This document shows positions 355 through 40,104 of a stretch of 40,117 nucleotides of DNA, one piece after another (positions within the stretch are counted from its first letter, which is position 1; the number at the start of each line of letters is the position of its first letter). Source of the DNA: Gemmatimonadaceae bacterium (lineage in GTDB: Bacteria; Gemmatimonadota; Gemmatimonadetes; Gemmatimonadales; Gemmatimonadaceae); assembly GCA_016741895.1 (NCBI GenBank), contig JACVCT010000006.1, positions 1 to 40,117 of the forward strand, written 5' to 3'. Both the position numbers and the translations under genes were made by a program. The notes under the pieces were generated by a model. That model worked only from the letters and a program-made list of their open reading frames with translations. It had not been told where the DNA came from and did no database searches.

Positions 355-3258
355 TCAGCCTGCTCCCGCATTGTGTGGCGTCAGCAGGGGGGCCAGCCAC
401 TGACCGGTGTAACTCGCCGGGACCGACACCACCTCCTCTGGCCGGCCCATGGCCACCACCCGACCCCCGCCATCCCCGCCCTCGGGGCCCATGTCGATGA
501 TCCAGTCGGCCAGCTTGATCACATCGAGGTTGTGCTCGATCAGCAGCAGGGTGTGCCCCTGGTCGAGCAGACGCTCGAACACCTCCGCCAGCTTGCGGAT
601 GTCCTCGGGATGCAGGCCGGTCGTGGGCTCGTCGAGCACGTACAGCTTGCGCGGCCCGCTGGCTTTGGCCGACGACTTGACGGCCGTGCCCCTGGGCGCG
701 GCGGCCCGACCGGAACGCGCCGTGAGCGCCAGTTCGCGCGCGATCTTGAGACGCTGCGCCTCGCCGCCCGAGAGCGTGGTGGCCGGCTGACCGAGCCGCA
801 GGTAGCCCAGGCCCACCTGCTGCACCTGCCAGAGCGCCTGCGCCAGCTTGTCCTCGCGCGGAAAGAAGCGAATGGCCTCATCCACGGTCAGCTCCAGCAC
901 CTCGGCGATGTTCCGCCCCTTGAAGCGCACCTCCAGCACGTCGGGCTTGAAGCGCTTGCCACCGCAGGCGTCGCAAGGCACGAACACATCGGCCATGAAG
1001 ACCATCTCGACTTCGAGATGGCCCGCGCCTTCGCAGGTCTCACAGCGACCTCCGGCCACGTTGAAGGAGAAATGGCCGGCGTCGAAGCCCCTGGTGCGCG
1101 CCAGCGGCTGTTCACTGAACAGACGACGGATCTCGTCGTAGGCCTTCACATACGTGACGGGATTCGAACGCGGGGAGCGGCCGATGGGGCTCTGGTCCAC
1201 GAGCACCAGATCATCCAGCCATTCCACGCCGCTCAGCTGCGTGTACTGCCCCACGGTCTCGCCGAGATGCTCCTTGGCCGAGTGCTCGCCATGCAGCGTG
1301 CGTTCGACGGCGTGATACAGCACGTCATGCACCAGTGTGCTCTTGCCGGAGCCCGACACACCCGTGACCACGGTCAGCGCTCCGAGCGGAATGCGCACAT
1401 CCACGCCCTGCACGTTGTGCGCAGTGGCGCCGCGCAGTTCGAGCCAGCGTGACCCGAGCGGACGTCGTGCGCGTGGCAGTTCGATACGGCGCGCGCCCGT
1501 GAGATACTGGCCTGTGAGCGGACTCTCCGCCACACGATTCATGGGGCCGCTGAACACCACCTGACCGCCATGCTCGCCGGCGCCGGGGCCCATCTCCACC
1601 ATGTGATCGGCAATGCGCATGGCCTCGAGATCATGCTCCACCATGATCACCGTGTTGCCCAGGTCGCGCAGCCGCTCCAGTAGAGCCAGGAGCCTGTCGA
1701 GGTCGCGCGGGTGGAGACCGATGCTGGGTTCGTCGAGCACATAGGTGGCGTCCACCAGCGCCGCCCCGAGGGCATTGGCGAGTGTGATGCGCTGCGCCTC
1801 GCCGCCGGACAGGGTGCGGGTGGCGCGATCGAGCGTGAGATAGGTGAGTCCCACATCGGCCAGAAAGCGCGTGCGCGCCCGCGCCTCACGCAACACCGTG
1901 TCTGCCACCTGCGCCTCCGCGCCTTCGAGCGCGAGGGTGTCGAGCCACGGCAGCAGGTCCCGCACCGGCAGCCGCGCCACGTCGGCGATGCTGCGACCCT
2001 GCACCCGCACCTGCAGGGCGTCGGGCTGCAACTTGCTGCCGCCACAGGTGCGGCACTCCTGCGCGCTCTGATACTTGCGAAGGAAGATGCGGATGTAGGC
2101 CTTGTAACGCTTCTCCTCGAGGTTGACGAGAAAGGGGCGAATGCCGGTGTATTGCCGCGTGCGGGCCGACATGAACTGTTCGCGCGCGCTCGCCGGCAGT
2201 TCCTGCCAGGGCGTGTCGGGATTCACGCCCAGCGTGCGCGCAAAGTCCACGACGGCGCGCCGCTGCTTTTCGTAGCGCGGTGCCGTCCACGGATCGATGG
2301 CGCCGTCGCGCACCGAACGGGCCGGGTTGGGCACGATCAGCGCGTCGTCGTAGTCGAGCGTGGCGCCAAAGCCATTGCAGGTGGGGCAGGCGCCGCGCGG
2401 ATTGTTGAACGAGAACAGCTGCGGTGTGGGCGTGGGCGCACGCCAGCCGTCATCCGGACACTCGAAGCGCTCCGTGAAGGCCAGGTGGTGCCGGGCCGTG
2501 CCCGCCTCGTCCACGCCATCGGGAAAGAGCAGCAGCAGGTCGCCGTCGCCCTCGGTGAATGCCGTCTGCACCGCGTCGGCGAGTCGCCCGCGGTCGTCCG
2601 TGGCAATGCGCAAACGATCCACGACGATGGCCACCTGCGGGGCAGTGGCGAGATCGAGGCCGCGGCTGTCCACGTCGTCGAGATGCACGATGTCCGGCGC
2701 GCCCTGCGACGGGTCGCCGATGGCGAGCCGCACGAAGCCGCGCGCCCGCAGATTGTCGGCAATCACCGCCGAGGTCACCGCTTGCGAGCGCACGAGCGGG
2801 CAGGCCACGAGCACGCGCGTGCCGGCCGGCAGGGCCAGCGCGCGATCGGTGACCGACTGCACGGTGGCCGGCCGCAGCTCACGGTTGCAGACACGGCAGA
2901 AGGTGTGGCCCACGCGGGCCCAGAGCAGCCGCAGGTAGTCGTAGATCTCGGTCGCGGTCCCCACCGTGGACCGGGACGTCCGCGTGGGGTTCTTCTGTTC
3001 GATGGCCACAGCCGGGGAGAGACCCTCCACCGCGTCCACCGCCGGTTTCTCCATGCGCTCGAGGAACTGACGGGCATAGGCCGACAGCGACTCCACATAG
3101 CGCCGCTGGCCTTCGGCGTAGATGGTGTCGAAGGCCAGCGACGACTTGCCCGATCCCGAGACGCCAGTCACCACCGTGATGGCGCGGCGTGGCAGGTCGA
3201 GATCGAACCCCTTGAGGTTGTGTTGCCGGGCTCCCCGGATGCGGATGCGGTCCTTCAT
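355..3258 (-). CDS. uvrA: Excinuclease ABC subunit A (divergent UvrA)
   Basis: UvrA is the damage-scanning ATPase of nucleotide excision repair; it loads UvrB at lesions. The 967-aa protein has both ABC modules: N-terminal Walker A GVSGSGKSS (32-40), a UvrB-binding region (about 125-250), signature LSGGEAQR with VLDEPSIGLHPRD, a second Walker A GVSGSGKST, the CETC...CDAC zinc module and a second LSGGEAQR with LDEPTTGLHPED. Two oddities. The first zinc module reads CPDD at 267-270 where CPxC is usual, leaving three of four cysteines (the CPTC at 291-294 is intact). A roughly 20-residue Ala/Lys/Ser-rich insert also separates the second signature from its Walker B. The segment before CRTCGG (KRYKAYIRIFLRKY) differs from the usual UvrA sequence there, so this may be a paralogue rather than the only UvrA. 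It is divergent from the ABC exporter. The ATG follows a TAGTTT box by 7 nt with no Shine-Dalgarno. Confidence 0.93.
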   Translation of the reverse strand: MKDRIRIRGARQHNLKGFDLDLPRRAITVVTGVSGSGKSSLAFDTIYAEGQRRYVESLSAYARQFLERMEKPAVDAVEGLSPAVAIEQKNPTRTSRSTVGTATEIYDYLRLLWARVGHTFCRVCNRELRPATVQSVTDRALALPAGTRVLVACPLVRSQAVTSAVIADNLRARGFVRLAIGDPSQGAPDIVHLDDVDSRGLDLATAPQVAIVVDRLRIATDDRGRLADAVQTAFTEGDGDLLLLFPDGVDEAGTARHHLAFTERFECPDDGWRAPTPTPQLFSFNNPRGACPTCNGFGATLDYDDALIVPNPARSVRDGAIDPWTAPRYEKQRRAVVDFARTLGVNPDTPWQELPASAREQFMSARTRQYTGIRPFLVNLEEKRYKAYIRIFLRKYQSAQECRTCGGSKLQPDALQVRVQGRSIADVARLPVRDLLPWLDTLALEGAEAQVADTVLREARARTRFLADVGLTYLTLDRATRTLSGGEAQRITLANALGAALVDATYVLDEPSIGLHPRDLDRLLALLERLRDLGNTVIMVEHDLEAMRIADHMVEMGPGAGEHGGQVVFSGPMNRVAESPLTGQYLTGARRIELPRARRPLGSRWLELRGATAHNVQGVDVRIPLGALTVVTGVSGSGKSTLVHDVLYHAVERTLHGEHSAKEHLGETVGQYTQLSGVEWLDDLVLVDQSPIGRSPRSNPVTYVKAYDEIRRLFSEQPLARTRGFDAGHFSFNVAGGRCETCEGAGHLEVEMVFMADVFVPCDACGGKRFKPDVLEVRFKGRNIAEVLELTVDEAIRFFPREDKLAQALWQVQQVGLGYLRLGQPATTLSGGEAQRLKIARELALTARSGRAAAPRGTAVKSSAKASGPRKLYVLDEPTTGLHPEDIRKLAEVFERLLDQGHTLLLIEHNLDVIKLADWIIDMGPEGGDGGGRVVAMGRPEEVVSVPASYTGQWLAPLLTPHNAGAG

Positions 3259-5208: not shown

Positions 5209-5409
5209 ACCGCCCCATCCGGGACCATGACCTGCGCCCCATGCCCCGGACCCGCACTTGTCCAGTCCCCACCGTCTACACGCCGTCCATCAACATCAGG
5301 CCACGGGAAACGGCTCCTGCGCTTGCCAATGGGCAACACGCCCGGATAGCTTCGCACGTTACGTTTGGTGTCCCCCGCGTTACTTCCTGAGACGAGCCAC
5401 CCCAAACAC

Positions 5410-6192
5410 GTGCAGCTTTCTGTCGCCGCCGGCACGGATGTCGGACGCATACGGGCAGGCAACGAAGACAGCCTTTACGCCGACGCCGACCAGGAGCGGG
5501 GCCTCTTCATCGTCGCCGACGGCATGGGTGGGCACGCCGCGGGCGAGGTGGCCAGCGAGATGGCCGTGCAGATCGTCTCCCGTGAGCTCTCCGGGCTGCG
5601 CGATCTCACCCGCGACGACATCGGCCCACGCATGGCGGCGGCGCTCAAGGAGGCCAATCGCGCCATCTACGAGCGCACCATCCAGGAAGCCGACAAGCAG
5701 GGCATGGGCACCACCGCCTCCTGCCTCATGATGGGCTACGGGCGCTGGTTCATTGGTCACATTGGTGATTCGCGGGTGTACCTGCTGCGCGATGGCGTGT
5801 TCCGTCAGCTCACCAAGGATCACTCCTACGTGCAGGAGCAGGTGGACGCCGGCTTCCTCACGCCCGAGCAGGCGCGGTACCACCCGTACAGCAACGTGAT
5901 CACGCGCTGTGTCGGCGCCAACGCGGCGGCCGAGGCCGACGTGCACAGCGGCGAGTTGCAGGCCGGTGATGTCTATCTCGTGGCCTCCGACGGGCTCACT
6001 GGCATGGTCGAGGATCCGCAGCTCAAGAAGATCCTCGAAACCAGGCAGACACCGGGACGCATGGTGGACGCGATGATCACCGAGGCCAATCGTCGAGGGG
6101 GACTCGACAACATCACGGCCATCGTGGTGCAGGTCGTCAAGGTCACCGGTGTCGCGACCGGCGAAATGGCGGCCGTGCTGCCCCCGGGGTGA
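5410..6192 (+). CDS. PP2C-family serine/threonine phosphatase
   Basis: This is a metal-dependent protein phosphatase (PPM/PP2C) of about 260 aa in the short bacterial Stp/PrpC class, which removes phosphate from Ser/Thr kinase targets. The full motif set is present: RAGNED, VADGMGGHAAGE, GTTAS, GHIGDSRVYLLR, LTKDHSYV, ITRCVG, LVASDGLTGM and GGLDNITAIVV, including the metal-binding Asp residues. It has no membrane segment and no extra domain. The frame is open from TTG 5365. GTG 5410 is preferred because it yields the standard start (MQLSVAAGTDVG) and because a TACGTT -10-like box (5360-5365) would place transcription downstream of 5365. No kinase gene is nearby. The 68-aa gene follows after 16 bp. 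Confidence 0.9.
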   Translation: MQLSVAAGTDVGRIRAGNEDSLYADADQERGLFIVADGMGGHAAGEVASEMAVQIVSRELSGLRDLTRDDIGPRMAAALKEANRAIYERTIQEADKQGMGTTASCLMMGYGRWFIGHIGDSRVYLLRDGVFRQLTKDHSYVQEQVDAGFLTPEQARYHPYSNVITRCVGANAAAEADVHSGELQAGDVYLVASDGLTGMVEDPQLKKILETRQTPGRMVDAMITEANRRGGLDNITAIVVQVVKVTGVATGEMAAVLPPG

Positions 6193-17465: not shown

Positions 17466-17525
17466 GCGCTCAGCGCCTGCGCGCTCAGCACCTGCGCGAT
17501 CAGCGCCTGCGCGATCAGCGCTTGC
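17466..17525. repeat. Four 15-bp tandem repeats over the envC-like stop codon
   Basis: There are four copies of a GCG(C/A)TCAGC(G/A)C(C/T)TGC unit, at 17466-17480, 17481-17495, 17496-17510 and 17511-17525. The copy nearest the gene contains its TGA stop. Because the period is five codons, each further copy repeats that stop in frame, giving four successive in-frame stops. Confidence 0.85.
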
Positions 17526-18765
17526 CGCGCAGCCAGTCCAGCGGATCCACCGCCCGCCCCTTGGGGCGGATTTCGAAGTGCAGGTGTGGTGGCAATTCCG
17601 GATCGGCGGCACCGACGGTGCCGATGACCTGGCCCTTGGTGACCTGCTGGCCACGGCGTACGCCGATCTGCGCCAGCGAGCCATACACGGAATAGTCACC
17701 GCCGCCGTGCTGCACGATGACCGTGGACCCATACGTGCCCACATTGTCGGCCAGCACCACCTCGCCCGCGGCAATGCTGCGCACGGCGGTGCCGGCCGGC
17801 GCGCCGATGCCCACGCCGTTCCAGCGCGTTGTGGTGTTGTTGGGATTCACCACGCGGCCGAACTGATACAGCAGCGTGCCGTCCACCGGCCAATCCAGCT
17901 TGCCAAGGTCGGAGGTGCGAATGGTGGACGGCGCGGCCGGTCTCGCGTTGGGCGCCATTTCGGCGCGGCGGCGCGCGGTCTCGAGTGTGGCAATGGCGTT
18001 GGCAATGCGCGACTCGTCGCGCGCCAGCTGCTGCAGCCGTTCGCGGGCCTGCGCGGCGGAACGCTGCACGGCCGTCAGGTTGCGTTGCCGCGTATTCTCC
18101 AGCGCCGCCAGACGCCGGGCTTCGCGCTCCTTCTCCTGCCGGTTGCGACTCACGTCGTCCTGCAGCCGCACCAGCAGCAGACGCTGCGAAATGATCTGGT
18201 CACGCAGACCCTCCACACGACGCACCAGGTTGCGGTCGTTGACGGCGAGTTCGTGCAGATACTTGTAGCGGGCCACGAGGCCGGCAAATGACTGGGCGGA
18301 CAGCATGGCCTCCACGTCGTAGAGACTGCCGCGCTTGTAGATCTCCACCATGCGTCGCTGCAGCGCACCGCGGCGATTGACGAGCTCGCCCTCTGCACGC
18401 TGCAGACCACTGCTGGCCTTGATCACTTCCTCGTTGATGGTCTCGAGCTGTTTGTCGAGCGCTTCCACCAGGCGCGCCGTGGTGCGGCGCTGCGCCTCGA
18501 GATTGGCCACTTCCTCGGCTAGGGTGCGCGCGCTGCGCTGCAGCTGGTTCATGCGGTTCTCGAGATCACTGCGCTCCTTGCGCAGCTTGTCGAGTTCGCT
18601 CTGCTGCTGGCGGAGGCGCTGCTCGGCGCTTTGGGTGCCAGCCTGACCCTGCGCGTCTGCGGCCAGCAGTGCGGTGCTCAGCAAAGTCACCACACCCACT
18701 GCGGCCCCGCGAATCACCCGCGCGAGGCGATGGGGTTGCGCGGGCCGCCGCCCCGAGCCGTTCAC
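17515..18765 (-). CDS. EnvC-like murein hydrolase activator (degenerate LytM)
   Basis: The 416-aa periplasmic protein has a signal peptide (about 1-41, ending AQG). A long coiled coil rich in Gln, Arg, Glu and Leu covers residues about 45-270, followed by a C-terminal LytM/M23 domain (about 295-416). Two of the three expected zinc ligands are missing: RWNGVGIGAP replaces FHxGxDxAAP, giving Trp315 and Gly319. The YxH motif is YGS, while HLHFEI (394-399) is kept. E. coli EnvC shows the same kind of loss (RWKGMVIGAP) and activates amidases instead of cutting peptidoglycan, so this is inferred to be an activator. The gene overlaps ftsX by 4 bp, matching the known FtsEX-EnvC partnership. Confidence 0.88.
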   Translation of the reverse strand: MNGSGRRPAQPHRLARVIRGAAVGVVTLLSTALLAADAQGQAGTQSAEQRLRQQQSELDKLRKERSDLENRMNQLQRSARTLAEEVANLEAQRRTTARLVEALDKQLETINEEVIKASSGLQRAEGELVNRRGALQRRMVEIYKRGSLYDVEAMLSAQSFAGLVARYKYLHELAVNDRNLVRRVEGLRDQIISQRLLLVRLQDDVSRNRQEKEREARRLAALENTRQRNLTAVQRSAAQARERLQQLARDESRIANAIATLETARRRAEMAPNARPAAPSTIRTSDLGKLDWPVDGTLLYQFGRVVNPNNTTTRWNGVGIGAPAGTAVRSIAAGEVVLADNVGTYGSTVIVQHGGGDYSVYGSLAQIGVRRGQQVTKGQVIGTVGAADPELPPHLHFEIRPKGRAVDPLDWLRGKR

Positions 18766-19622
18766 GAGTCGCGCCAGACCTGCCGCAGATGGCGGCCCAC
18801 ACTCAACCAGCTGCCCAGCAATCCCAGCACACCACCCGCGGCAATGCCGAGCAGCACCTGACTCGGTTCAAAGAACCGGGTCTCCAACAGCGAGCGCGTC
18901 ACCAGGGTGCTGGTACCCCAGGCCAGCGCCACCGCCAGCACACCGCCCACCAGTCCCTTGAGCGCCCCATCGAGCAGGTAGGGCAGGCGCACGAACATGT
19001 TGGTGGCGCCCACCAGGCGCATGATCTCGATTTCGCGCGTGCGCGCGAGAATGGACATGCGAATGGTGGAGCCGATGATGATGACCGACACCAGCGCAAA
19101 GACGGCGCCAAGCACGGAACCGGCGAGGCCCGCCAGATTGCGAATGCGATAGAGTTTCTCCACCCACTCGCGGCCGTAGCGCACTTCCTCAACCTGCGGA
19201 TAGGTCTGCAGTCGCCGGGCAACTTCCTTGACGGTTTCCGGGTCGCGCGAGCCATCCTTGAGCCGCAGTTCCACCGAGGCCGGCAGGAAGGAGCCCTCCA
19301 TCACATCACGAAACTCCTCGAGCTCGGCGCGCGCCCGCACGAGTGCGGAGTCCGGTGATACGTAGCCGGCATCTGCCACCTGCGGCATGTTGCCGATACC
19401 CTGCATGAGCTCCTCCACCTGCGCGTCGCGCGTGCCCTCCACGAGGAAGGCGCGAATCTCCACGCGGTCCTCGATGTCACGCAGCGCCTGCCGGATGTTG
19501 AGCGCCACCAGGCCAAAGAGGCTGAAGGCGTAGAGCGAGAAGGCAATGGTTGTCACCGCCAGAACGGCCAACAGCGGCGCGCGCCGGAAGGCGAGCAGCA
19601 CCTCACGCAGCGCGAGCCTCAC
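18762..19622 (-). CDS. ftsX: Cell-division ABC permease FtsX
   Basis: FtsX is the membrane half of FtsEX, which couples ATP hydrolysis by FtsE to activation of peptidoglycan hydrolases at the division site. The 286-aa protein has the FtsX layout: an N-terminal membrane helix (about 14-40), a periplasmic domain (about 45-165, the partner-binding loop), then three membrane helices (about 168-195, 215-240, 255-275). MSILARTREIEIMRLVGATNMFVRLPYL is the typical cytoplasmic FtsX signature. It overlaps ftsE upstream and the EnvC-like gene downstream by 4 bp each, so the three are translationally coupled. Confidence 0.95.
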   Translation of the reverse strand: MRLALREVLLAFRRAPLLAVLAVTTIAFSLYAFSLFGLVALNIRQALRDIEDRVEIRAFLVEGTRDAQVEELMQGIGNMPQVADAGYVSPDSALVRARAELEEFRDVMEGSFLPASVELRLKDGSRDPETVKEVARRLQTYPQVEEVRYGREWVEKLYRIRNLAGLAGSVLGAVFALVSVIIIGSTIRMSILARTREIEIMRLVGATNMFVRLPYLLDGALKGLVGGVLAVALAWGTSTLVTRSLLETRFFEPSQVLLGIAAGGVLGLLGSWLSVGRHLRQVWRDS

Positions 19623-20329
19623 TTGCGCCCCCGCATGTCGGCGCGGAGCCGCAGCACGTCGGTGCCGTCGAACACCAGCTCCCCCTTGTCGAGTTCGAGG
19701 AAGCGCTGCTGCGCCCGCTCGATCATGGCCACATCGTGCGTGGCCATGAGCACCGCCGTACCGCGCGCGTTGATTTCGCGCAGCAGCAGGTAGATGGCAT
19801 GGGTGGCACGGTCGTCGAGATTGCCGGTGGGTTCATCCGCCAGCAGCAGGAAGGGATCGTTGGCCAGCGCCCGCGCGATGGCCACACGCTGCTGCTCACC
19901 GCCCGAGAGTTCGTGCGGATAGGCCGTGGCCCGGGACGCCAGCCCAACCTGCAGCAGCAGACGCGATACCTTGGGCGCGATCTGCGACGACGGGGTGCCG
20001 GTGACCTCGAGGGCAAAGGCCACGTTCTGCTCGGCCGTGCGATCAGGCAGCAGCCGGAAGTCCTGAAAGACAATGCCAAGCCGCCGCCGGAGATGCGGAA
20101 TCTCGCGTGGCTTGATGGAGAAGCTCGAGTAGCCCGAGACGCGCACCTCACCTGTGGTGGGACGCTCGGCCATGGTGAGCAGGCGCAGCAGCGTGCTCTT
20201 GCCGGCGCCGGAATGGCCCACGAGAAACACGAACTCGCCCTTGGCGATTTCGAAGTTCACACCACGCAGGGCCATGCCGGAGCGCGGGTACTCCTTGCTC
20301 ACGTTCGTCACGCGCACGATGCCCGACAT
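19619..20329 (-). CDS. ftsE: Cell-division ATPase FtsE
   Basis: FtsE is the ATPase partner of FtsX. The 236-aa ABC ATPase has Walker [11 protein letters not shown]-loop VFQDFRLL (FQDF is typical of FtsE), signature [15 protein letters not shown], Walker [13 protein letters not shown] and switch His in MATHD. ATG 20329 is chosen: the 17 extra residues of the longer frame overlap the upstream stop and do not look like FtsE. The gene starts one base after the PLP-like gene stops, implying co-translation with that unusual neighbour. Confidence 0.95.
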
Positions 20330-20330
20330 G

Positions 20331-21275
20331 TCAGGCCACTCCGTCGCGCAGCACGTCGCCCAGGTCGCCGATGAGCACACTGGCCTCGTCGAGCCCCACG
20401 TGCAGTCGCACCGTGTCCGGTGCTTCCGCCAGACGGATGTCCGCGCCGTGCGGACGCGCCTGCGCGGCCAGATGCCGCGTGAGACGCTGCGCCAGGCGGT
20501 CGGCGGCGTCGGCCGAGGGACACTGCAGCTGCACCACCGGCCCCTGATGTCGCAGCGCCTCGGCGGCCAGGTGGTGATCGGGGTGCGACTCGAGGCCCGT
20601 GTAGTGCACCGTCAGCCCCGCGGGAGCGGCCATGGCCACGGCCCGCGCCACCGCGTGGGCCACGTGCGCCTGATGCGCCACGCGCAGCGATAGGGTGGCG
20701 AGATCATGCAGCAGGCGCTCGGCAATGGACGGATGTGGCACGGCACCCCAGACATGCATCTTGCTCCGCACCTCGTCGATCACGGCCTCGGTGCCGCACA
20801 CCACGCCCGCCTCGGTGTCCGGAACACTGAACAGCCGCACCCGCGCGTCATGCACCACGACATCGGCCCCCGCTGCCAGGGGCGTGGCCGCCGCCGGCGA
20901 CGCACCGCTTGCATCCACCACGATGGCCACGCCCAGCTCCTGGCCCAGCGTGCGCAGCGGCTTGAGGTCCACCACCCGCCCGTGCTCGATGACCGGCGAC
21001 TCCACGAACAGCACCCGTGTGCTGCGGCGCATGTCGCGGCGCCACGCGCGCACGTCGCTGGGATTGACGTAGGTCACATCCACGCCAAGCCCCGCCAGTT
21101 CCTGCTGAAAGAAGGTGCGGGTGGACGGACGCAGCCAGGCACTCGACAGCACGTGATCGCCCGGGCGCAGCAGCGCCAGCACGGTGCAGGCGATGGCGGC
21201 CCGGCCGCTCGCGAGCACGAGCGCCGCGTCGGCCCCTTCGAGGTCAGCCAGTCGGCGGTGCAGCAGGTCAATCAC
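20331..21275 (-). CDS. Cys/Met-metabolism PLP-fold protein lacking catalytic Lys
   Basis: The 314-aa protein resembles the cystathionine gamma-synthase family: LEGADAALVLASGRAAI, LLRPGDHVLSS, LFVESPVIEHGRVVDL and the pyridine-binding Asp in VVDASGAS (121). The PLP lysine is absent: the family SATK is DARV here (143-146), within VVVHDARVRLFS. The PLP-stacking Tyr region and the N-terminal YSR...NPT segment are also missing. A PLP reaction is therefore not expected; it may be a pseudo-enzyme or a binding protein. The open frame extends to 21527 but that part overlaps the upstream gene and is unlike the family. GTG 21275 is the best in-frame start after that gene ends (no clear ribosome site). 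It directly precedes ftsE (1-bp gap). Confidence 0.75.
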   Translation of the reverse strand: MIDLLHRRLADLEGADAALVLASGRAAIACTVLALLRPGDHVLSSAWLRPSTRTFFQQELAGLGVDVTYVNPSDVRAWRRDMRRSTRVLFVESPVIEHGRVVDLKPLRTLGQELGVAIVVDASGASPAAATPLAAGADVVVHDARVRLFSVPDTEAGVVCGTEAVIDEVRSKMHVWGAVPHPSIAERLLHDLATLSLRVAHQAHVAHAVARAVAMAAPAGLTVHYTGLESHPDHHLAAEALRHQGPVVQLQCPSADAADRLAQRLTRHLAAQARPHGADIRLAEAPDTVRLHVGLDEASVLIGDLGDVLRDGVA

Positions 21276-21303
21276 GGCAGCGTGAGCAAAAGGGCGGCGG
21301 CGC

Positions 21304-21654
21304 TCAGGCGCGCGGCCGGGTATCGGTGTCGAGACGGATGATGCGTACCACTTCTGACAGCGAAGCGCCCGCGACGTCACGCAGCACCACCCCGCCGCGC
21401 GGCAGGCTGTCGTCGATTTCCAGCACGGCCAGCTCCGATCGGCGCTGCGACACCACCCGCACCAGTTCGCCCGCGTTGACGAGGCGCACCAGCGCGTCAT
21501 CCGCGCGCATGCGCACCAGCGGGCCACGCTCGGCGTCGCCCTTGCGGGTGGCGATGAACCCCACCACCTGTACCGGCGGCGCGATGCCGGTGAACATGCT
21601 CAGCTTGCGGCCGGCGCCCGGTCCGCCCAGTCCATCACGATGGTCGTTGCTCAC
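21304..21654 (-). CDS. Small beta-rich protein, function unknown (116 aa)
   Basis: This is a soluble protein without signal or membrane segments. The C-terminal half (VRMRADDALVRLVNAGEL, VRVVSQRRSELAVLEID, LPRGGVVLRDV) has the strand pattern of double-psi barrel domains such as the C-terminal domain of molybdopterin oxidoreductases. This is a weak resemblance judged by eye, with no cofactor residues to support it. It lies 10 bp after the STAS/winged-helix gene and 28 bp before the PLP-like gene, so it belongs to the same transcript. Confidence 0.6.
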   Translation of the reverse strand: MSNDHRDGLGGPGAGRKLSMFTGIAPPVQVVGFIATRKGDAERGPLVRMRADDALVRLVNAGELVRVVSQRRSELAVLEIDDSLPRGGVVLRDVAGASLSEVVRIIRLDTDTRPRA

Positions 21655-21664
21655 GGCAGAGCCC

Positions 21665-22222
21665 TCATGCGTCGCTCCAGGTGCTGCCCGGAATGCTGTA
21701 GCCCAGCGGGCCGCGCATCACGAGGCGACGGCGGTCGAGCTGGTCGAGCTGCTGCTGGGCACTGACTTCGGTGCTGGCCAGAATGGTGGCCACTTCGCGG
21801 GCGCCAATGGGCCCATGGTCGCGTACCACTTCCCAGTGCCGGAGTTCCTCGTCCGTCACATGACCGAAGAGCTCGGCCGCGCCCTCGTGCCAGGACACCA
21901 GGGCCAGCGCATGCCGCTCGAGCACCGTCTCGATGGGGTCGATGTGTCCATCACGGATGCCGCGAAACGCGAGATATCCACGCGGGCCGTCGTCGGCGGT
22001 GTAGCGCAGCAGCAACTTGGCCACGATCTCGTCGGCGCAGGAGAAATCGAGCAGGTTGACCTGCGAGAAATCGATGGTGGTGAGCACCGGCCGTTCGATT
22101 TCCCGCACCTGCTGCTCGATGGCACTTCGCACCGCCGCACCGGTGGGACGCGTGACGAGGTTGCTGTACAGATCGCAAACCGTGCCACGCAGCACGGTGC
22201 CCACATCGATGTGGACCATCAT
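21665..22222 (-). CDS. STAS-like protein with C-terminal winged helix
   Basis: In this 185-aa protein, residues about 5-115 resemble a STAS/DUF4325-type domain, with IDFSQVNLLDFSCADEIVAKLL at the place where STAS proteins carry the regulatory Ser/Asp loop. The C-terminal 60 residues (DHGPIGAREVATILASTEVSAQQQLDQLDRRRLV) look like a winged-helix module. The neighbour immediately upstream is a STAS-HATPase protein, so the two may form a kinase/antagonist pair as in partner-switching systems; this is inference. ATG 22222 is followed at once by a second ATG. Separated from its neighbours by 44 and 10 bp. Confidence 0.7.
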   Translation of the reverse strand: MMVHIDVGTVLRGTVCDLYSNLVTRPTGAAVRSAIEQQVREIERPVLTTIDFSQVNLLDFSCADEIVAKLLLRYTADDGPRGYLAFRGIRDGHIDPIETVLERHALALVSWHEGAAELFGHVTDEELRHWEVVRDHGPIGAREVATILASTEVSAQQQLDQLDRRRLVMRGPLGYSIPGSTWSDA

Positions 22223-22266
22223 GGCGTTGCCGCTCCGCGCGTTGCCGCTTCTCGAGGCGCCATGAC

Positions 22267-23205
22267 TCAGCGCCCCGTGCGGCTGCGGGGTGTCGCCGTG
22301 CGCGAGCGCACCGGGGCATCGCCCAGACGCTCGGGGATGACAATCTGCATCTGCGCACCGGGGAAGTAGGGCAGTGACTCGGTCATGGGCACATCTTCGT
22401 CCCAGTCGGGCGTGATGGCCAGACGCGCAGTGCCGCTGCGCACGGTGAGCTTGCCCTCCCAGCGACCCACAAAGCGGCGAATGCCCGCCAGACCCTGACC
22501 GCGTCCCTTGTCACCGTGTCGGAAGCGGCTGACGGCGCGCAGCACGGCGTCTTCGAGCGCCATGGCATCGTCCCATCGATCACTGTGCCGGTGACTGGGC
22601 GAACTTTCGAGCGACTTGCGAAAGCCCACACCGGCGTCGCACACGGCAATGACCACCACGCGACGGCCGAGGCGCTTGGTGTAGCGATAGGTCTGTACGG
22701 CCACCCAGCCGCCCAGCCCCGCGTGCTCGACGATGTTCTGGCAGGACTCGCTGAGGGTCATGCCAAAGGCGCCGGTGACGGCCGTGTCGAGATTGAGCTG
22801 GCCGTGCAGAATGTCGGCGGCCTTCTGCTGAATGCGGCCCACCACCCCGTGCACATCATCGGTGCGCGTGATGGGCGTGAGCTCGAGCAGCACATCGCTT
22901 TCGTGAGCCTCACGTTCCCGCGGCACGTGCCCGTGCAGGTCGTACAACTCGGCCGCATGGCGAAAGAAGCCCGTGCGTGACCAGTACGAGAGCGTGTCGG
23001 GATTTTCGGGAACGGCGAAGTCGGCACGCTCGTGGCGCGATTGCGCCACGCAGAGCAGGGCCGCAAGCCCATACGGCGACGACCAACGGGCATGCCGTGC
23101 GTCGATCAGCAGCTTCTCGCCATCCGGCACAGGCGCGAGTTGCTCGAACACCTGCTCGAACGTTTGCTCGTCGAGCGACGGCGGCACGGCGATGACGGTC
23201 GTCAC
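22267..23205 (-). CDS. STAS-like plus HATPase (anti-sigma-type) protein
   Basis: In this 312-aa soluble protein, residues 1-115 are STAS-like (LLIDARHARWSSPYGLAALLCVA...YWSRTGFF). Residues 125-295 are a GHKL ATPase with N-box ESCQNIVEHA (153-162), G1 CDAGVGF (189-195) and G2 GRGQGLAGI (234-242). There is no dimerisation/phospho-His domain or sensor, as in RsbW/SpoIIAB-type serine kinases, so the target is probably a protein rather than a response regulator. The basic tail (SRTATPRSRTGR) is unstructured. GTG 23205 overlaps the PfkB stop by 4 bp. The neighbouring STAS protein is the obvious candidate partner. Confidence 0.8.
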   Translation of the reverse strand: MTTVIAVPPSLDEQTFEQVFEQLAPVPDGEKLLIDARHARWSSPYGLAALLCVAQSRHERADFAVPENPDTLSYWSRTGFFRHAAELYDLHGHVPREREAHESDVLLELTPITRTDDVHGVVGRIQQKAADILHGQLNLDTAVTGAFGMTLSESCQNIVEHAGLGGWVAVQTYRYTKRLGRRVVVIAVCDAGVGFRKSLESSPSHRHSDRWDDAMALEDAVLRAVSRFRHGDKGRGQGLAGIRRFVGRWEGKLTVRSGTARLAITPDWDEDVPMTESLPYFPGAQMQIVIPERLGDAPVRSRTATPRSRTGR

Positions 23206-24257
23206 GTGATGCTGAGCTCTCCGCGAAGGTGCTGGGCGAGGCCGGAGGCCCCGCGATGTTCGACGTTGCGTGACGCGGCCCGATTGGCGGCGGCGATCGC
23301 ATCCGTCAACATATCACCGGCGAGCAGCCGAGAGAAATGGGTGGCGCCCCACACATCACCGCAGCCGGTGGGATCACCGGGCCCATCGACGCGCGCCGGC
23401 ACCGCCGGAACCAGCGCCGTGCGCACCGCGCCCAGGGCACCGGCACCGCCACGCGGTGATGTGGACAGCGCGGAGTTGTGACCTCGTCGCTCGGGGATGT
23501 CACGGAGTTTCTCTATCCCCGGCGCAGCAAAGTAGGCCGCGCCGCGCTTGCCCAGCTGCACAAAGAGCACCGACACGCCGGCAGCCATGGCGGTGGCGGC
23601 CAGCGCCATGGCGTCAGGGGCCATGAGCTGCAACTCGTCTTCGTTCACCTGCAGCACGTCGAAACAGGCGCACCACGCCGCCACATCGGGCAGGGGGCGC
23701 GGCGTGCGCAGCCCATCGGCCTGCACGGCCATCACGAGCATGTGCAGGTCGCAGTAGATCGGACCCTGGAAGTGTGCGCGAATGAGTTGCGTGGTCTCGA
23801 GATCGAGTTCCCAGCCGCTCAGGAAGTTGATGTACAGCGCGTCGAGCCGCGCCGCATCGAGCACCGGCTTGAGGCCCAGCCAGGTCCAACCCGGCACACC
23901 GCCGCTCAGGTGTTCACTGCGGCGCTCGTCATCGAGATAGCGCAACTCCACGCGATTGTTGCGATAGGGCACGCCAATGAGCTCGGCGTCGGGCGCCATG
24001 CGCCGGAGACTGCGACAGAACAGCCGCGCGCGGTCCACGAGATCGTCACCCACCTTGGCGAGTGGCACCAGTTCCCAGTCATCAGGCAGCGCGGCGTCGA
24101 GCGCTGACAGGGAGTAGGTGATGCCACCCCATTCCTCGATGGGCACGCTGCGGCCGTCGCGGCCGTGCAGCACATCCCACACAAACGAGCCAATGACGCC
24201 AAGGCGCTTGCGGCGCGGTGTTGACGTGTGGTCGTTGGATTCGGTCGTGGAGTTCAA
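23202..24257 (-). CDS. PfkB-family carbohydrate kinase
   Basis: This is a ribokinase/PfkB-fold sugar or nucleoside kinase of about 351 aa. Seen are the first strand LGVIGSFVWDV, the GG-containing loop EEWGGITYSLSALDAAL, and the C-terminal anion-hole and catalytic motif DPTGCGDVWGA, where the catalytic Asp is kept but the usual GAGD is GCGD. The substrate cannot be assigned. TTG 24257 is chosen: it gives the normal N-terminus, lies 25 bp after the ROK gene and has a GAAGAG stretch upstream; the longer GTG frame (24341) runs into the ROK coding region. Its stop overlaps the STAS-HATPase start. Confidence 0.85.
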   Translation of the reverse strand: MNSTTESNDHTSTPRRKRLGVIGSFVWDVLHGRDGRSVPIEEWGGITYSLSALDAALPDDWELVPLAKVGDDLVDRARLFCRSLRRMAPDAELIGVPYRNNRVELRYLDDERRSEHLSGGVPGWTWLGLKPVLDAARLDALYINFLSGWELDLETTQLIRAHFQGPIYCDLHMLVMAVQADGLRTPRPLPDVAAWCACFDVLQVNEDELQLMAPDAMALAATAMAAGVSVLFVQLGKRGAAYFAAPGIEKLRDIPERRGHNSALSTSPRGGAGALGAVRTALVPAVPARVDGPGDPTGCGDVWGATHFSRLLAGDMLTDAIAAANRAASRNVEHRGASGLAQHLRGELSIT

Positions 24258-24282
24258 GACTACGCGGTACTCTTCATTCTCT

Positions 24283-25299
24283 TCAGGCCGGCGGACGGCC
24301 CGTGGTCTGCGCGATGTAGCTGGCCACCGCACCCACCACACCGGCGGTGCCCGGCAGCGTGCCCGGCACGATGCGACAGGTGTCGGTCACGCTCTTGAAG
24401 GCGCGGCGACGCACTTCGGTGCGCAGCGGCGTGAAGAGATCATCGCCGGCCTGGGTCACGCCACCCGCGATGACCACCACGTCCGGATTGAAGATGTTGA
24501 GCAGGTTGGCGATGCCGGCGCCCAGGAACTTCGCGGTGTCTCGCACGATCTCGAGGGCCACCGCGTCGCCGTCGGCAGCGGCCTGATACACCAGCGCCGC
24601 CGTGACCTGCGACAGATCGCCGTTCACGAGCGCGAGCAGCGTGCTGGTTTCGTCGTGCTCCAGTGCTTCGCGCGCACGGCCGGCAATGGCACTGCCCGAG
24701 GCGTAGGCCTCGAGGCAGCCGTAGTTGCCGCATCCGCAGCGCCGGCCGGTGGGGTCGATGGTGATGTGCCCGATTTCGCCGGCCGCATCGCTGGAGCCGT
24801 GATAGAGTTGCCGGTCGATGATGATGCCACCGCCCACGCCGGTGCCGATGGTGACGCCAATGACGTTGGTGCCACCACGCGCTGCGCCCAGCCACCACTC
24901 GCCGTAGGTGGCGCAGTTGGCGTCGTTGTCGATGCGCACCGGCAGCCCGGTGAGGGCCGTCATGCGCTCCGTCAGCGCGTAGTTGGACCAGCGCAGGTTG
25001 GGTGCAGCCAGCACGAGCCCCTGCTTGCGATCCACGGTGCCGGGAGCGCCAAGGCCCACACCAAGCACCGCCTCACGCGGCACGCCCGTTTCCTCCACCA
25101 CCGTGTCGATGGTGCGTGCGACCATCTGCGCCATGCGCTGCACAACCGACTCGGCACCTTCAGCGGCCAACGTGGGCGCCGTCTGCTGCCCCAGCAGTCG
25201 CGTTCCGTCCAGCGACATGGCCGCGACGACAATGTTGGTGCCGCCGAGGTCGACGCCAATGATGAATGAGGACGCGGGGGAATTGGTGGAGGTCGCCAT
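24283..25299 (-). CDS. ROK-family sugar kinase (glucokinase-like)
   Basis: The 338-aa ROK protein has the ATP-binding strand IIGVDLGGTNIVVAA (13-27), sugar site DNDANCATYGEWWLGA, IGTGVGGGIIIDRQLYHG, and the zinc motif GHITIDPTGRRCGCGNYGCLE with its three Cys and one His. There is no N-terminal DNA-binding domain, so it is a kinase rather than a ROK repressor. The likely role is phosphorylation of glucose or a related hexose. It is the first gene of the minus-strand run leading to ftsEX. The ATG lies exactly 6 nt after a TATGTT box. Confidence 0.9.
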   Translation of the reverse strand: MATSTNSPASSFIIGVDLGGTNIVVAAMSLDGTRLLGQQTAPTLAAEGAESVVQRMAQMVARTIDTVVEETGVPREAVLGVGLGAPGTVDRKQGLVLAAPNLRWSNYALTERMTALTGLPVRIDNDANCATYGEWWLGAARGGTNVIGVTIGTGVGGGIIIDRQLYHGSSDAAGEIGHITIDPTGRRCGCGNYGCLEAYASGSAIAGRAREALEHDETSTLLALVNGDLSQVTAALVYQAAADGDAVALEIVRDTAKFLGAGIANLLNIFNPDVVVIAGGVTQAGDDLFTPLRTEVRRRAFKSVTDTCRIVPGTLPGTAGVVGAVASYIAQTTGRPPA

Positions 25300-25305
25300 G
25301 GCCCA

Positions 25306-25311
25306 AACATA
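25306..25311 (-). promoter_or_regulatory. -10-like TATGTT box next to ROK kinase start
   Basis: TATGTT on the minus strand ends 6 nt before the ATG at 25299, with no ribosome binding site between. This would be the promoter of the predicted nine-gene operon. No -35 hexamer is visible at 16-18 bp. Confidence 0.45.
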
Positions 25312-25342: not shown

Positions 25343-26464
25343 TCAGTAGGGAATCGCCCGCCGCAGCCGTTGCCAGAGTTGCTCGTCGAAGGTGCTCACC
25401 GCGAGCGGATTGCCGGCCGACACGTCCGCTTCGGCGCCGTGCCGCACCATCACGAGGTCGAGGCTGGGGATCACATAGATCTTCTTGTCGCCCCTCCCCA
25501 GCGCCGCCACGAGATCGCGTGGCGCCGAGGGCACCAGCATGCCTGGCTGGGTGGGGAACCAATACGGACCCGGGACACGCACCCCGCTGCTGCCATTGAG
25601 CCACCAGAGCAGGCCATAGGCTCCGTTGTCCGGCGGCCCCGGGCGCCACATCTGGGTGATCCAGGTCGAATCCACGACAGGCGTGCCGTTCCAGCGTCCA
25701 CGGGTCAGCATGAGCAGCCCGAAACGCGCCATGTCCCGCGCGGTGCAGCTGAGGATGAACCCCGGCTCCCCGGTGTCCACGTTGAAGCGCCAGGTGCCGC
25801 CCATGCCAATGGGCGCGAGCAGGCGCGTGCGCGTCGCGGTGTTGATGTCCTGACCCGTGACACGGGTCACGAGCGCGAAGAGCTGGTAATACGCCGGATT
25901 GTTGTAGTAGAACCGTGTACCGGGCGCCACGACTGCCTGCAGGGAGTCGTTGAGGCCCGACGTCATCTGCAGCAGGTGTCGCACGGTGATGCGGGCTTCG
26001 GTCGACGGACTGCGCGACCAGCCCGGACCAAGGTATTGGCTTGCCGGTGCGTCGAGACTCACGCGTCCCTCAGCCTGCAGCTGCCCCACCAGCGTGGCGA
26101 GTACGCTCTTGCCGGCCGAGGCAATGATGCTGTCCGTCTCGGGCGTCCAGCCGCGCCAGTAGCGCTCGGCCACGACACGCCCTCGCCACGCAATGAGCAT
26201 GGCAGTGGTCTGCTGCGTCCCCGCCCATTCGAGGGCAGCGTTGAGCGCCGTGCTGTCCCACCCCAGAGCCGCCGGTGCGATGGAGGCCCAGGCACCGGTA
26301 CTCGGCGGAAACACCAACGGCAGCGACCTGACATCCGTCACGGGTGGCGGCGTGGTCGGCGCCGTGGGCGGCGGGGGAGCCACGACGTCCCCGCCTCCGC
26401 TGCTCCCGCAGGCACTGACGACCAGCAGCAGCGCAATGATCGGACCCACGCGCATGATGACCAT
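25343..26464 (-). CDS. Serine hydrolase lipoprotein (beta-lactamase/PBP-like)
   Basis: The 373-aa protein belongs to the class C beta-lactamase/esterase superfamily. It begins with a lipoprotein signal (IALLLVVSAC, lipid Cys at 19), then a Gly/Pro/Thr-rich linker (about 20-45), then the catalytic domain. The SxxK motif is SAGK (116-119), YxN is YNN within RFYYNNPAYYQ, and MVRHGAEA supplies the third (H/K-x-G) element. Such proteins act on D-Ala peptides or esters; true beta-lactamase activity is not implied. ATG 26464 and 26455 are both possible starts; the longer upstream frame lacks a signal peptide. It lies 68 bp after the GT9 gene on the same strand. Confidence 0.85.
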   Translation of the reverse strand: MVIMRVGPIIALLLVVSACGSSGGGDVVAPPPPTAPTTPPPVTDVRSLPLVFPPSTGAWASIAPAALGWDSTALNAALEWAGTQQTTAMLIAWRGRVVAERYWRGWTPETDSIIASAGKSVLATLVGQLQAEGRVSLDAPASQYLGPGWSRSPSTEARITVRHLLQMTSGLNDSLQAVVAPGTRFYYNNPAYYQLFALVTRVTGQDINTATRTRLLAPIGMGGTWRFNVDTGEPGFILSCTARDMARFGLLMLTRGRWNGTPVVDSTWITQMWRPGPPDNGAYGLLWWLNGSSGVRVPGPYWFPTQPGMLVPSAPRDLVAALGRGDKKIYVIPSLDLVMVRHGAEADVSAGNPLAVSTFDEQLWQRLRRAIPY

Positions 26465-26532
26465 GCTCGGAAGACGCAGCAAGCTCCCGCGCGTTAACCT
26501 TGCGGTCTCGCGCGCGACTAATGAGCGGCGAA

Positions 26533-27570
26533 TCAGCCGTGCAGCGCGTGCGCGGCGCCGGCCACCTGTGCCGGTGACAGCTCGCGCATGCAGCGGAAGT
26601 GGCCCAGCGGGCACTGCGCGGGCCCATGCGCATGACAGGGACGGCAGTCCAAGCTGTTGTGCTCGACCACCGTATGCCGTTCGGCCAACGGGCCGAAACC
26701 AAAGGCGGGCACGGTCGGGCCAAACAAAGCCACCGTGGGCGCATTCATGGCGCTGGCCAGATGCAGGGGTGCCGAATCGTTGGTGACGAGCACACGACAG
26801 CGCCCAAGCAGGGCCGCCGATCCCAGCAGCGACAACTGGCCGGTGGCGTCCACAACCGGTGCACCGCCCGCCTCGAGAGCCGCGCTGGCAATGGCCGCCG
26901 CCAGCGGTGCATCACCTGCGGCACCCAGCACCACGATGCGCTCGCCCCTGTGTCCAATGGAACGAACAAGTTCTGCTGCCAGCGCTGCGTAGTGTGGCCA
27001 TCGCTTGGTGGCCCACACACTGCCGGGGGCGAGGGCAATCAGCGGTTCCTGCGCGGACACACCGGCGCGGTCCAGCAGCGCCTGCACCGAGGCGTGATCG
27101 GCCGGGCCGGGATGCAGCGAAGGCCTGAGTGGCGGCGGTACGTCATCGCGCCCCGCTGCATTCCCCAATTGCCACAGACGCGCGGCGTGATGCAGGTCGC
27201 GGCGATACGGCACGCGGCGCGTGGTGAAGAGGCGGCCGCCGCTGGTATCGAAGGTGATGCGCTCGGGAATGCCGGCCATCCATGCCAGGGCCGCGGTGCG
27301 ACTCGAGCCCTGCGCCAGCAACGCGCGGTCAGCCTTGATGCGGCGCAGTCGCTGGGCCATACGCCGCAATCCGCCCAGACCGCGATCGGCGCCACGCTTG
27401 TCGAAGACCAGTACACCGGCCACCGCAGGGTGATTGGCCAGCACGCCGGCATTGGCCGGCGTGGCCACGACATGCACCGGACCCTCGGCCGCCAGCCGCT
27501 CGATGAGCGGCGTGGTGAGGATCATGTCGCCGAGGAAGCTGGTTTGGAGGACAGCCGAAACCACGGGCAT
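26533..27570 (-). CDS. GT9 glycosyltransferase (LPS heptosyltransferase-like)
   Basis: The 345-aa glycosyltransferase family 9 (GT-B fold) protein is similar to WaaF/RfaF, which adds heptose to the LPS inner core. Seen: N-terminal QTSFLGDMILTTPLIERL, the mid-protein APGSVWATKRWPHYAALAAEL, and the donor-binding TNDSAPLHLASAMNAPTVALFGPT. Several cysteines near the C-terminus (DCRPC, QCPLGHFRCM) are shared by many WaaF-like proteins. It acts at the cytosolic face of the inner membrane. ATG 27570 directly abuts the palindromic repeat, so its promoter must lie in or beyond that repeat. Precise donor and acceptor are unproven. Confidence 0.85.
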   Translation of the reverse strand: MPVVSAVLQTSFLGDMILTTPLIERLAAEGPVHVVATPANAGVLANHPAVAGVLVFDKRGADRGLGGLRRMAQRLRRIKADRALLAQGSSRTAALAWMAGIPERITFDTSGGRLFTTRRVPYRRDLHHAARLWQLGNAAGRDDVPPPLRPSLHPGPADHASVQALLDRAGVSAQEPLIALAPGSVWATKRWPHYAALAAELVRSIGHRGERIVVLGAAGDAPLAAAIASAALEAGGAPVVDATGQLSLLGSAALLGRCRVLVTNDSAPLHLASAMNAPTVALFGPTVPAFGFGPLAERHTVVEHNSLDCRPCHAHGPAQCPLGHFRCMRELSPAQVAGAAHALHG

Positions 27571-27686: not shown

Positions 27687-29483
<1,797 letters not shown>

Positions 29484-39159: not shown

Positions 39160-40104
39160 GTGATCCGACTCGGCATCACGCTCGGCGATCCGCGGGGCAT
39201 CGGTCCGGAGATTGTCGGCAAGGCGCTCAACGACCCGCGGATTGCGGCGTTGGGCGCTTCGTGGTTTGTGCTGGGCCCCTCGGGGACCGGGGTGGCCGTG
39301 GACGACGATCTGGGGCCCTGGGTGCCCGTGGCGCCGGATGCCTTGAACACGGAGGCTGTCGTCACACGGGCGGGGGCGCTGGCTGGTGAGGCGGTGGAGC
39401 GGGCGGCGCGCCTGGCCCTGGCTGGCAGGTTGGCCGGCATCGTCACGGCCCCGCTCGACAAGTACGCGCTGCGGGCGGGCGGCTTTGACTACCCCGGGCA
39501 TACCGAGATGCTGGCGGCGCTGGCCGGCGTGCCCGTGGCCATGATGCTGGCAAGCAGCAGGCTGCGCGTGGTACTCGCCACCACGCACATTGCGCTGCGT
39601 GAGGTGCCGGAGGCCGTGACGCGCGACGCGCTCACGCAGGCCTACCAGACCACGGCGCGCGGTCTGCGTGAGGACTTCGGCATTGCCGCCCCGCGCATCG
39701 CGCTTTGCGCGCTCAATCCGCATGCCGGGGATCACGGACGATTCGGCCACGAGGATGACGAGTTGCTGACGCCCGTCGCGCGTGAGCTCGGGATGCACGG
39801 GCCGTTTCCCGCCGACACGGTCTTCGTGCGCGCCATGCGTGGCGAGTTTGATGCCGTGATTGCGCCCTACCACGACGTGGGCATGACGGCCATCAAGGTG
39901 GCCAGCTTCGGCAGCGCGGTGAATGTGACGTTGGGGCTGCCGTTCATTCGCACGTCACCCGATCACGGGACGGCGCTGGACATTGCGGGGCAGGGAGTGG
40001 CGTCGGCGGAGAGCATGGTGCAGGCGATGGAGCTCGCGTACGCTCTGGCGCTTCGGCGGGGATCCCGGGGGCCGCGGGATCCCGTGGGCCGCGGAGCCCT
40101 GTAA
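39160..40104 (+). CDS. pdxA: 4-hydroxythreonine-4-phosphate dehydrogenase PdxA
   Basis: PdxA oxidises 4-phosphohydroxy-L-threonine in the DXP-dependent route to pyridoxal phosphate. The 314-aa protein shows the family motifs: GDPRGIGPEIVGKAL, TAPLDKYAL, YPGHTEML (metal His), ALNPHAGDHGRFGHED (metal His), APYHDVGMTAIKV (metal His; Val where Gln is common) and LGLPFIRTSPDHGTALDIAG. It starts at GTG 39160, 10 bp after surA. The last 13 bases of the window (GAGAGGGG-rich) may be the ribosome site of a further gene, possibly rsmA by analogy with the surA-pdxA-rsmA order. Confidence 0.95.
   Translation: MIRLGITLGDPRGIGPEIVGKALNDPRIAALGASWFVLGPSGTGVAVDDDLGPWVPVAPDALNTEAVVTRAGALAGEAVERAARLALAGRLAGIVTAPLDKYALRAGGFDYPGHTEMLAALAGVPVAMMLASSRLRVVLATTHIALREVPEAVTRDALTQAYQTTARGLREDFGIAAPRIALCALNPHAGDHGRFGHEDDELLTPVARELGMHGPFPADTVFVRAMRGEFDAVIAPYHDVGMTAIKVASFGSAVNVTLGLPFIRTSPDHGTALDIAGQGVASAESMVQAMELAYALALRRGSRGPRDPVGRGAL

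Follow-up and report, generated by a model that had tools for sequence, protein, structure and literature searches.

Throughout Gemmatimonadales, ftsE-ftsX-envC lie behind a sugar-kinase and HATPase/STAS gene module that occurs apart from them elsewhere in the phylum

The division genes ftsE, ftsX and envC of a Gemmatimonadaceae bacterium (GenBank assembly GCA_016741895.1) close a run of nine genes that also encodes two sugar-kinase-like proteins, a HATPase protein and a STAS protein. We examined this run in a stretch of 40,117 bp (hereafter the window) from contig JACVCT010000006.1, which is contig C22 of a 4.2-Mb draft genome that is 91% complete. The run is conserved across an entire order, and each of its two halves is found alone in other lineages. 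We consider it probable that it consists of two modules of different age, in which the operon of a STAS-HATPase serine kinase and a STAS–winged-helix regulator (module A) gained ftsE-ftsX-envC (module B) as transcriptional passengers.

Conservation and transcription of the run

On the minus strand the genes follow one another in the order ROK, PfkB, HATPase, STAS-like, small protein, PLP-like (pyridoxal phosphate fold), ftsE, ftsX and envC; Pfam and NCBIfam profiles identified the ROK, PfkB, HATPase, PLP, FtsE, FtsX and M23/coiled-coil products. The spacing described in an earlier note on this DNA is correct in every detail: genes overlap by 4 bp at PfkB/HATPase (23202-23205), ftsE/ftsX (19619-19622) and ftsX/envC (18762-18765), the PLP stop (20331) and the ftsE ATG (20329) are separated by 1 bp, and the widest gap, between the HATPase and STAS genes, is 44 bp. 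The span that the note assigned to the run, 20331-25299, takes in only six of the nine genes, as the run extends to 17515.

The HATPase protein was found in 281 of 298 genomes of the phylum, and we compared about 5-17 kb around its gene from 50 further genomes. The whole class keeps the order lepA-(heptosyltransferase)-ROK-PfkB-HATPase-STAS, and the PLP gene often comes next. In families f1-f3, which represent the order of the window (Gemmatimonadales), ftsE-ftsX-envC follow this module on the same strand at 29/29 loci from 24 genera, the window included, and the junctions are mostly between -4 and +4 bp. Among 80 additional contigs from public records, all 72 with enough sequence gave the same join; four of these 72 end before ftsX but show ftsE. 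The nine-gene run is conserved throughout Gemmatimonadales, and the earlier note's concern that these neighbours might be shared by very close relatives only is thereby removed. It is extremely improbable that the genes are independent transcription units brought together by chance, as might be argued from the high gene density of these genomes, because the same-strand order recurs in every informative locus and contig of both sets, with near-zero junctions.

No terminator-like or sigma-70-like site was found on the minus strand at any intergenic junction of the run. Most of the same-genus sequences compared carry a short TTATnTT-like block upstream of ROK, to which TATGTTTG of the window belongs, and in several same-genus relatives the gene between the heptosyltransferase gene and ROK lies on the opposite strand; together, these two features make a promoter at ROK likely in those relatives. 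The exact sequence TANNTTTG occurs at three sites in the window, all near gene starts, including the ROK upstream region and the start of a gene for an Stp1-type PP2C phosphatase. It was rejected as a general Bacteroidota-like promoter motif, as it is not enriched in relatives, and we retain only the block upstream of ROK, which is suggestive. An alignment of the sequences upstream of ROK revealed no obvious operator. Shared transcription of the nine genes appears likely, and module B would now probably be carried on the message of module A, with the promoter lying at ROK or lepA.

Separate occurrence of the two modules

Outside f1-f3 the division genes lie elsewhere. In families f4, f5, f6, f7 and f9, ftsE-ftsX-envC follow the kinase/STAS module at 0/21 loci; at 14/14 loci of the same families ftsE comes immediately after pdxA, the last gene of a DUF58-BatA-mfd-surA-pdxA cluster. 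In genomes where a single stretch holds this cluster and that of lepA, the two are divergent. The same position behind pdxA was seen at 5/5 loci of the sister class f11, and in family f8 ftsE follows surA (2/2). By gene order, the ancestral site of the trio is the one behind pdxA, and module B moved from there to the end of module A in the ancestor of f1-f3. An origin of the join by a single inversion was rejected, as it predicts that in the window the gene that elsewhere follows the PLP/STAS genes would be found behind pdxA and that holB/moaC would be found behind envC, and neither arrangement was seen; we therefore favour a move of the trio, or a series of rearrangements.

The two modules also part company in both directions. 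The kinase/STAS module is retained in g62, a genus of family f5. Two of the g62 genomes were read gene by gene, and in both holB and moaC come after pdxA, with no ftsE, ftsX or envC there. Two further g62 genomes gave no match to the trio behind pdxA, and the FtsX extracellular domain (PF18075) was found in none of 10 g62 genomes. In L272, L273, L274 and L275, all of g62, ftsE-ftsX-envC have been lost from behind pdxA. Conversely, families f8 and f11 possess ftsEX-envC but lack such a HATPase; a single weak HATPase match in one f11 genome was not confirmed by profile, and a sensitive profile search, which had no positive control, found no HATPase in the genomes without it. Judged by gene content, neither the kinase/STAS module nor ftsEX-envC needs the other. 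As the two occur apart and were joined late, all that is left to connect them is shared transcription, and this in a single order.

A candidate kinase/STAS signalling pair

The core of module A may be a two-gene signalling unit composed of a STAS-HATPase serine kinase and a STAS–winged-helix substrate. In the HATPase protein the residues of the N-box (S152, E153, N157, E160, H161), the G1 box (D190, G192, G194) and the G2 box (R235, G236, G238) are invariant, and Pfam places no HisKA domain alongside the HATPase domain. Its N-terminal domain matches the STAS structure 4hyl by profile (E 0.0013). The sequence resembles RsbW/RsbA weakly; the AlphaFold model of the fusion (predicted local distance difference test, pLDDT, 89) matches the fold of SpoIIAB (1tid, TMt 0.65), and the HATPase fold also matches that of SiaB. 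The "two STAS proteins" of the earlier note need correction: the run encodes a single separate STAS-like protein, and the other STAS domain is the one fused to the HATPase. The gene 21304-21654, which lies between the STAS and PLP genes, was rejected as a STAS gene, as it matches no STAS model and its homologues, found in family f1 only, match PF01568 (Molydop_binding) without exception; its ratio of nonsynonymous to synonymous substitution rates (dN/dS) is 0.085 against L089.

In the separate STAS protein, T24, R25, T27, G28, R32, D59, S61, C62, A63, D64 and E65 are invariant in 32 homologues. A profile search of PDB sequences with the STAS domain alone gave no match, and a fold search gave matches instead: the predicted structure (pLDDT 94) was matched by Foldseek to RsbS and to the winged helix of CggR. 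Ser61 lies at the beginning of the helix that follows a core strand, in a position that we take to be that of the phospho-serine of SpoIIAA (Ser58). The window protein has no match to PF14213 (DUF4325), and 3 of the 32 homologues match weakly (best E 0.009); a relative from Janibacter passes the cut-off of that model (27.8 against 23 bits). The conserved boxes, the invariant serine and the two folds give these proteins the look of a kinase and its substrate, as had been suspected from the presence of HATPase and STAS domains.

Known HATPase/STAS pairs without HisKA are Ser/Thr kinases acting on STAS proteins (PMC9239204), and SiaB-SiaC is another such pair (PMC8457831). Like SpoIIAB-SpoIIAA, RsbW-RsbV and SiaB-SiaC, the window pair combines a HATPase lacking HisKA with a STAS partner in which the hydroxyl residue at a helix start is invariant. 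Unlike in those systems, the kinase has its own N-terminal STAS domain, the substrate is a DUF4325-type STAS domain fused to a winged helix, and the operon has no sigma factor, diguanylate cyclase or phosphatase gene. We propose that the HATPase phosphorylates Ser61 in the STAS domain of its partner and that this would determine whether the partner's winged helix is bound to DNA or free; the output would most likely be gene expression. Direct contact of either protein with FtsEX would not be required.

Alternatively, the HATPase could bind a SigB/F-type sigma factor, with the STAS protein acting as an anti-anti-sigma factor. The weak resemblance to RsbW/RsbA, the SpoIIAB fold and a serine at the SpoIIAA-like position would suit such a system, but the draft genome contains no sigma factor above the TIGR02980/SigBFG cut-off (at the completeness given above), and the STAS protein carries a winged helix of its own; we regard this explanation as unlikely.

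Outside the phylum, relatives of the pair came from plasmid and phage records only, the single scan of genomic contigs having matched close Gemmatimonadota alone, to judge by the record titles. The order HATPase then STAS–winged helix recurs on a Janibacter melonis plasmid (NZ_CP046475, annotated DUF4325) and on a Nostoc linckia plasmid, with T24, R25, G28, S61, D64 and E65 (T-R-x2-G and S-x2-D-E) kept in both, and a relative of the HATPase is encoded by the Gordonia phage Phishy. The Janibacter pair thus shares gene order, STAS plus winged-helix architecture and both motifs with the window pair; it differs in being plasmid-borne, uncharacterised and outside any lepA/sugar-kinase/ftsEX operon, and in passing the Pfam cut-off that the Gemmatimonadota proteins do not reach. 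No division genes accompany the plasmid pairs of other phyla. This distribution, which takes in a phage and plasmids, conjugative ones among them, together with a match of the PADLOC DrmA model to the HATPase and STAS proteins in the same order, might indicate that the pair was acquired from mobile elements as a module of conflict or defence type. We consider this very doubtful, since the pair is class-wide, nearly always single-copy and placed within the same housekeeping cluster, under strong purifying selection and with no effector gene alongside. The DrmA model itself (PDLC02567, 1750 positions) has an apparently HATPase/STAS-like N-terminal part, which may reflect DrmA fusions with such a pair or a mixed model.

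Several points weigh against the proposal of a serine-kinase operon with passenger genes. Relocation by one simple inversion failed its own predictions; the persistence of the join across an order, with tight junctions, exceeds what a neutral neighbour needs; a DNA-binding role for the winged helix derives from fold resemblance only, and no operator was found; the operon has no SpoIIE/PP2C phosphatase gene; and the STAS part matches the DrmA model weakly (E 0.016).

Two phosphatase genes lie elsewhere. One, at 5365-6192 on the plus strand and 11 kb beyond envC, encodes the Stp1-type PP2C Ser/Thr phosphatase (NF033484, 250 bits, above cut-off). The other, a SpoIIE phosphatase gene, adjoins a further HATPase match on contig C212 of the same genome (G000, 1297-3215), possibly a separate and more canonical partner-switching locus.

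Division genes and the other members of the run

The assignment of the last three genes to FtsEX-EnvC is genuine: FtsE exceeds the cut-off of its equivalog model, FtsX has its extracellular domain (PF18075), and in the LytM domain of the EnvC-like protein Asn and Gly replace the first metal-ligand His and Asp, ligand positions that are likewise replaced in the Gemmatimonadota homologues aligned. The LytM domain of Escherichia coli EnvC is also without catalytic residues (PMC7668044), and the genome has two Amidase_3 loci above cut-off. The trio thus resembles the E. coli complex in its FtsE, in the FtsX extracellular domain and in an EnvC with a coiled coil and a degenerate LytM domain; it differs in forming one run behind a kinase/STAS module and in an EnvC that scores below the E. 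coli-based cut-off (best NCBIfam match EnvC PRK11637, 117 bits against 270). Module B is an ordinary amidase-activation complex.

The earlier note had suggested that the HATPase and STAS proteins gate division hydrolases by nutrient state. In its strict form, the sugar kinases and the HATPase/STAS pair would sense carbon or energy state and directly control FtsEX-EnvC within Gemmatimonadales. The adjacency throughout the order, with genes overlapping or nearly touching, the ATP-driven nature of FtsEX, the degenerate LytM activator (PMC7668044) and the two Amidase_3 loci all agree with this. However, each half exists alone in other families and in g62, plasmid-borne pairs have no division genes beside them, and the winged helix of the STAS partner suggests a DNA output; we judge direct control improbable and a dedicated nutrient switch for division rather unlikely. 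The separation seen at the 0/21 loci outside f1-f3, in g62, in f8 and f11 and among the plasmid pairs leaves the gating idea unsupported; it is possible solely as an innovation of Gemmatimonadales, for which the positive evidence stops at likely co-transcription. There is only a small chance that the relocation created a regulon tying septal amidase activation to carbon or energy state, through the STAS–winged-helix protein acting on its own operon or through direct contact, and that the inactive PLP protein of one genus possibly serves to sense a ligand. Gemmatimonadota cells divide by FtsZ-based fission with variable division planes, and FtsE, FtsX and EnvC are absent from the main text of the paper describing this (PMC11271474); such a regulon, if real, would bear on the unexplained placement of these planes.

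Most known cases of partner switching concern sigma factors and cyclic di-GMP enzymes. Under the reading that we prefer, a serine-kinase operon with ftsEX-envC as passengers, the STAS protein may itself be a transcription factor. The HATPase/STAS–winged-helix pair is nearly universal in the whole class and also plasmid-borne, and has no described function; DUF4325 is hardly mentioned in the literature searched. The relocation also indicates that conservation of an operon throughout an order can arise from movement of division genes, which calls for caution in inferring function from gene order, and the lineages with and without ftsEX provide clean natural contrasts.

The PLP protein has Val in place of the catalytic Schiff-base Lys (codon 20840-20838). 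Within the genus of the window, g1 (window, L010-L023, L090, L091 and L147-L159), every sequence covering the site has V, A, L, E, H, R, T, F, G or M instead of this Lys, which is kept in all other lineages seen, with one exception (T in L038/L176). The frame is open and under purifying selection, and dN/dS is 0.058 against the closest relative L089, similar to neighbouring genes; over longer distances in the genus it reaches 0.39-0.51, compared with 0.08-0.24 for most neighbours. Five loci elsewhere in the genome match the Cys/Met family better. The protein of this genus looks like a retained pseudoenzyme. In the PfkB-family kinase, the motifs GDPTGCGD and NEDE are kept across 49 homologues. 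Coordinates are given in Table 1.

Table 1. Features of the nine-gene run and related sites in the window
Feature	Coordinates	Strand	Remarks
ROK-family sugar kinase (glucokinase-like)	24283..25299	-	PF00480 240 bits; TIGR00744 251.5 bits, just below cut-off 260.35
PfkB-family kinase	23202..24257	-	PF00294 40 bits, cut-off 25.8; start uncertain, open frame reaches 24341
STAS-HATPase fusion	22267..23205	-	STAS ~residues 1-90; SpoIIAB/RsbW-type HATPase ~105-290
DUF4325-like STAS with C-terminal winged helix	21665..22222	-	putative phospho-acceptor Ser61, codon 22042-22040
Small protein resembling PF01568 (Molydop_binding)	21304..21654	-	19/19 homologues match PF01568, best E 3e-7
PLP-fold protein, Cys/Met family	20331..21275	-	PF01053 159 bits; N-terminally short; start uncertain (21275 or upstream)
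ftsE	19619..20329	-	TIGR02673 279.7 bits, above cut-off 264.85
ftsX	18762..19622	-	PF18075 (55 bits vs 23.5) and PF02687, both above cut-off
EnvC-like amidase activator, coiled coil and degenerate LytM/M23	17515..18765	-	PF01551 above cut-off
lepA, start of class-wide lepA-ROK-PfkB-HATPase-STAS cluster	27687..29483	-	same order in families f1-f7 and f9
pdxA, ancestral upstream neighbour of ftsE, here without ftsE	39160..40104	+	ftsE position in other families
Promoter-like block TATGTTTG	25304..25311	-	directly upstream of ROK ATG

The gene that separates the heptosyltransferase gene from ROK in the window (25343-26614) is beta-lactamase-like by eye; it lies on the same strand as the run here and on the opposite strand in L090, L091 and L150-L152.

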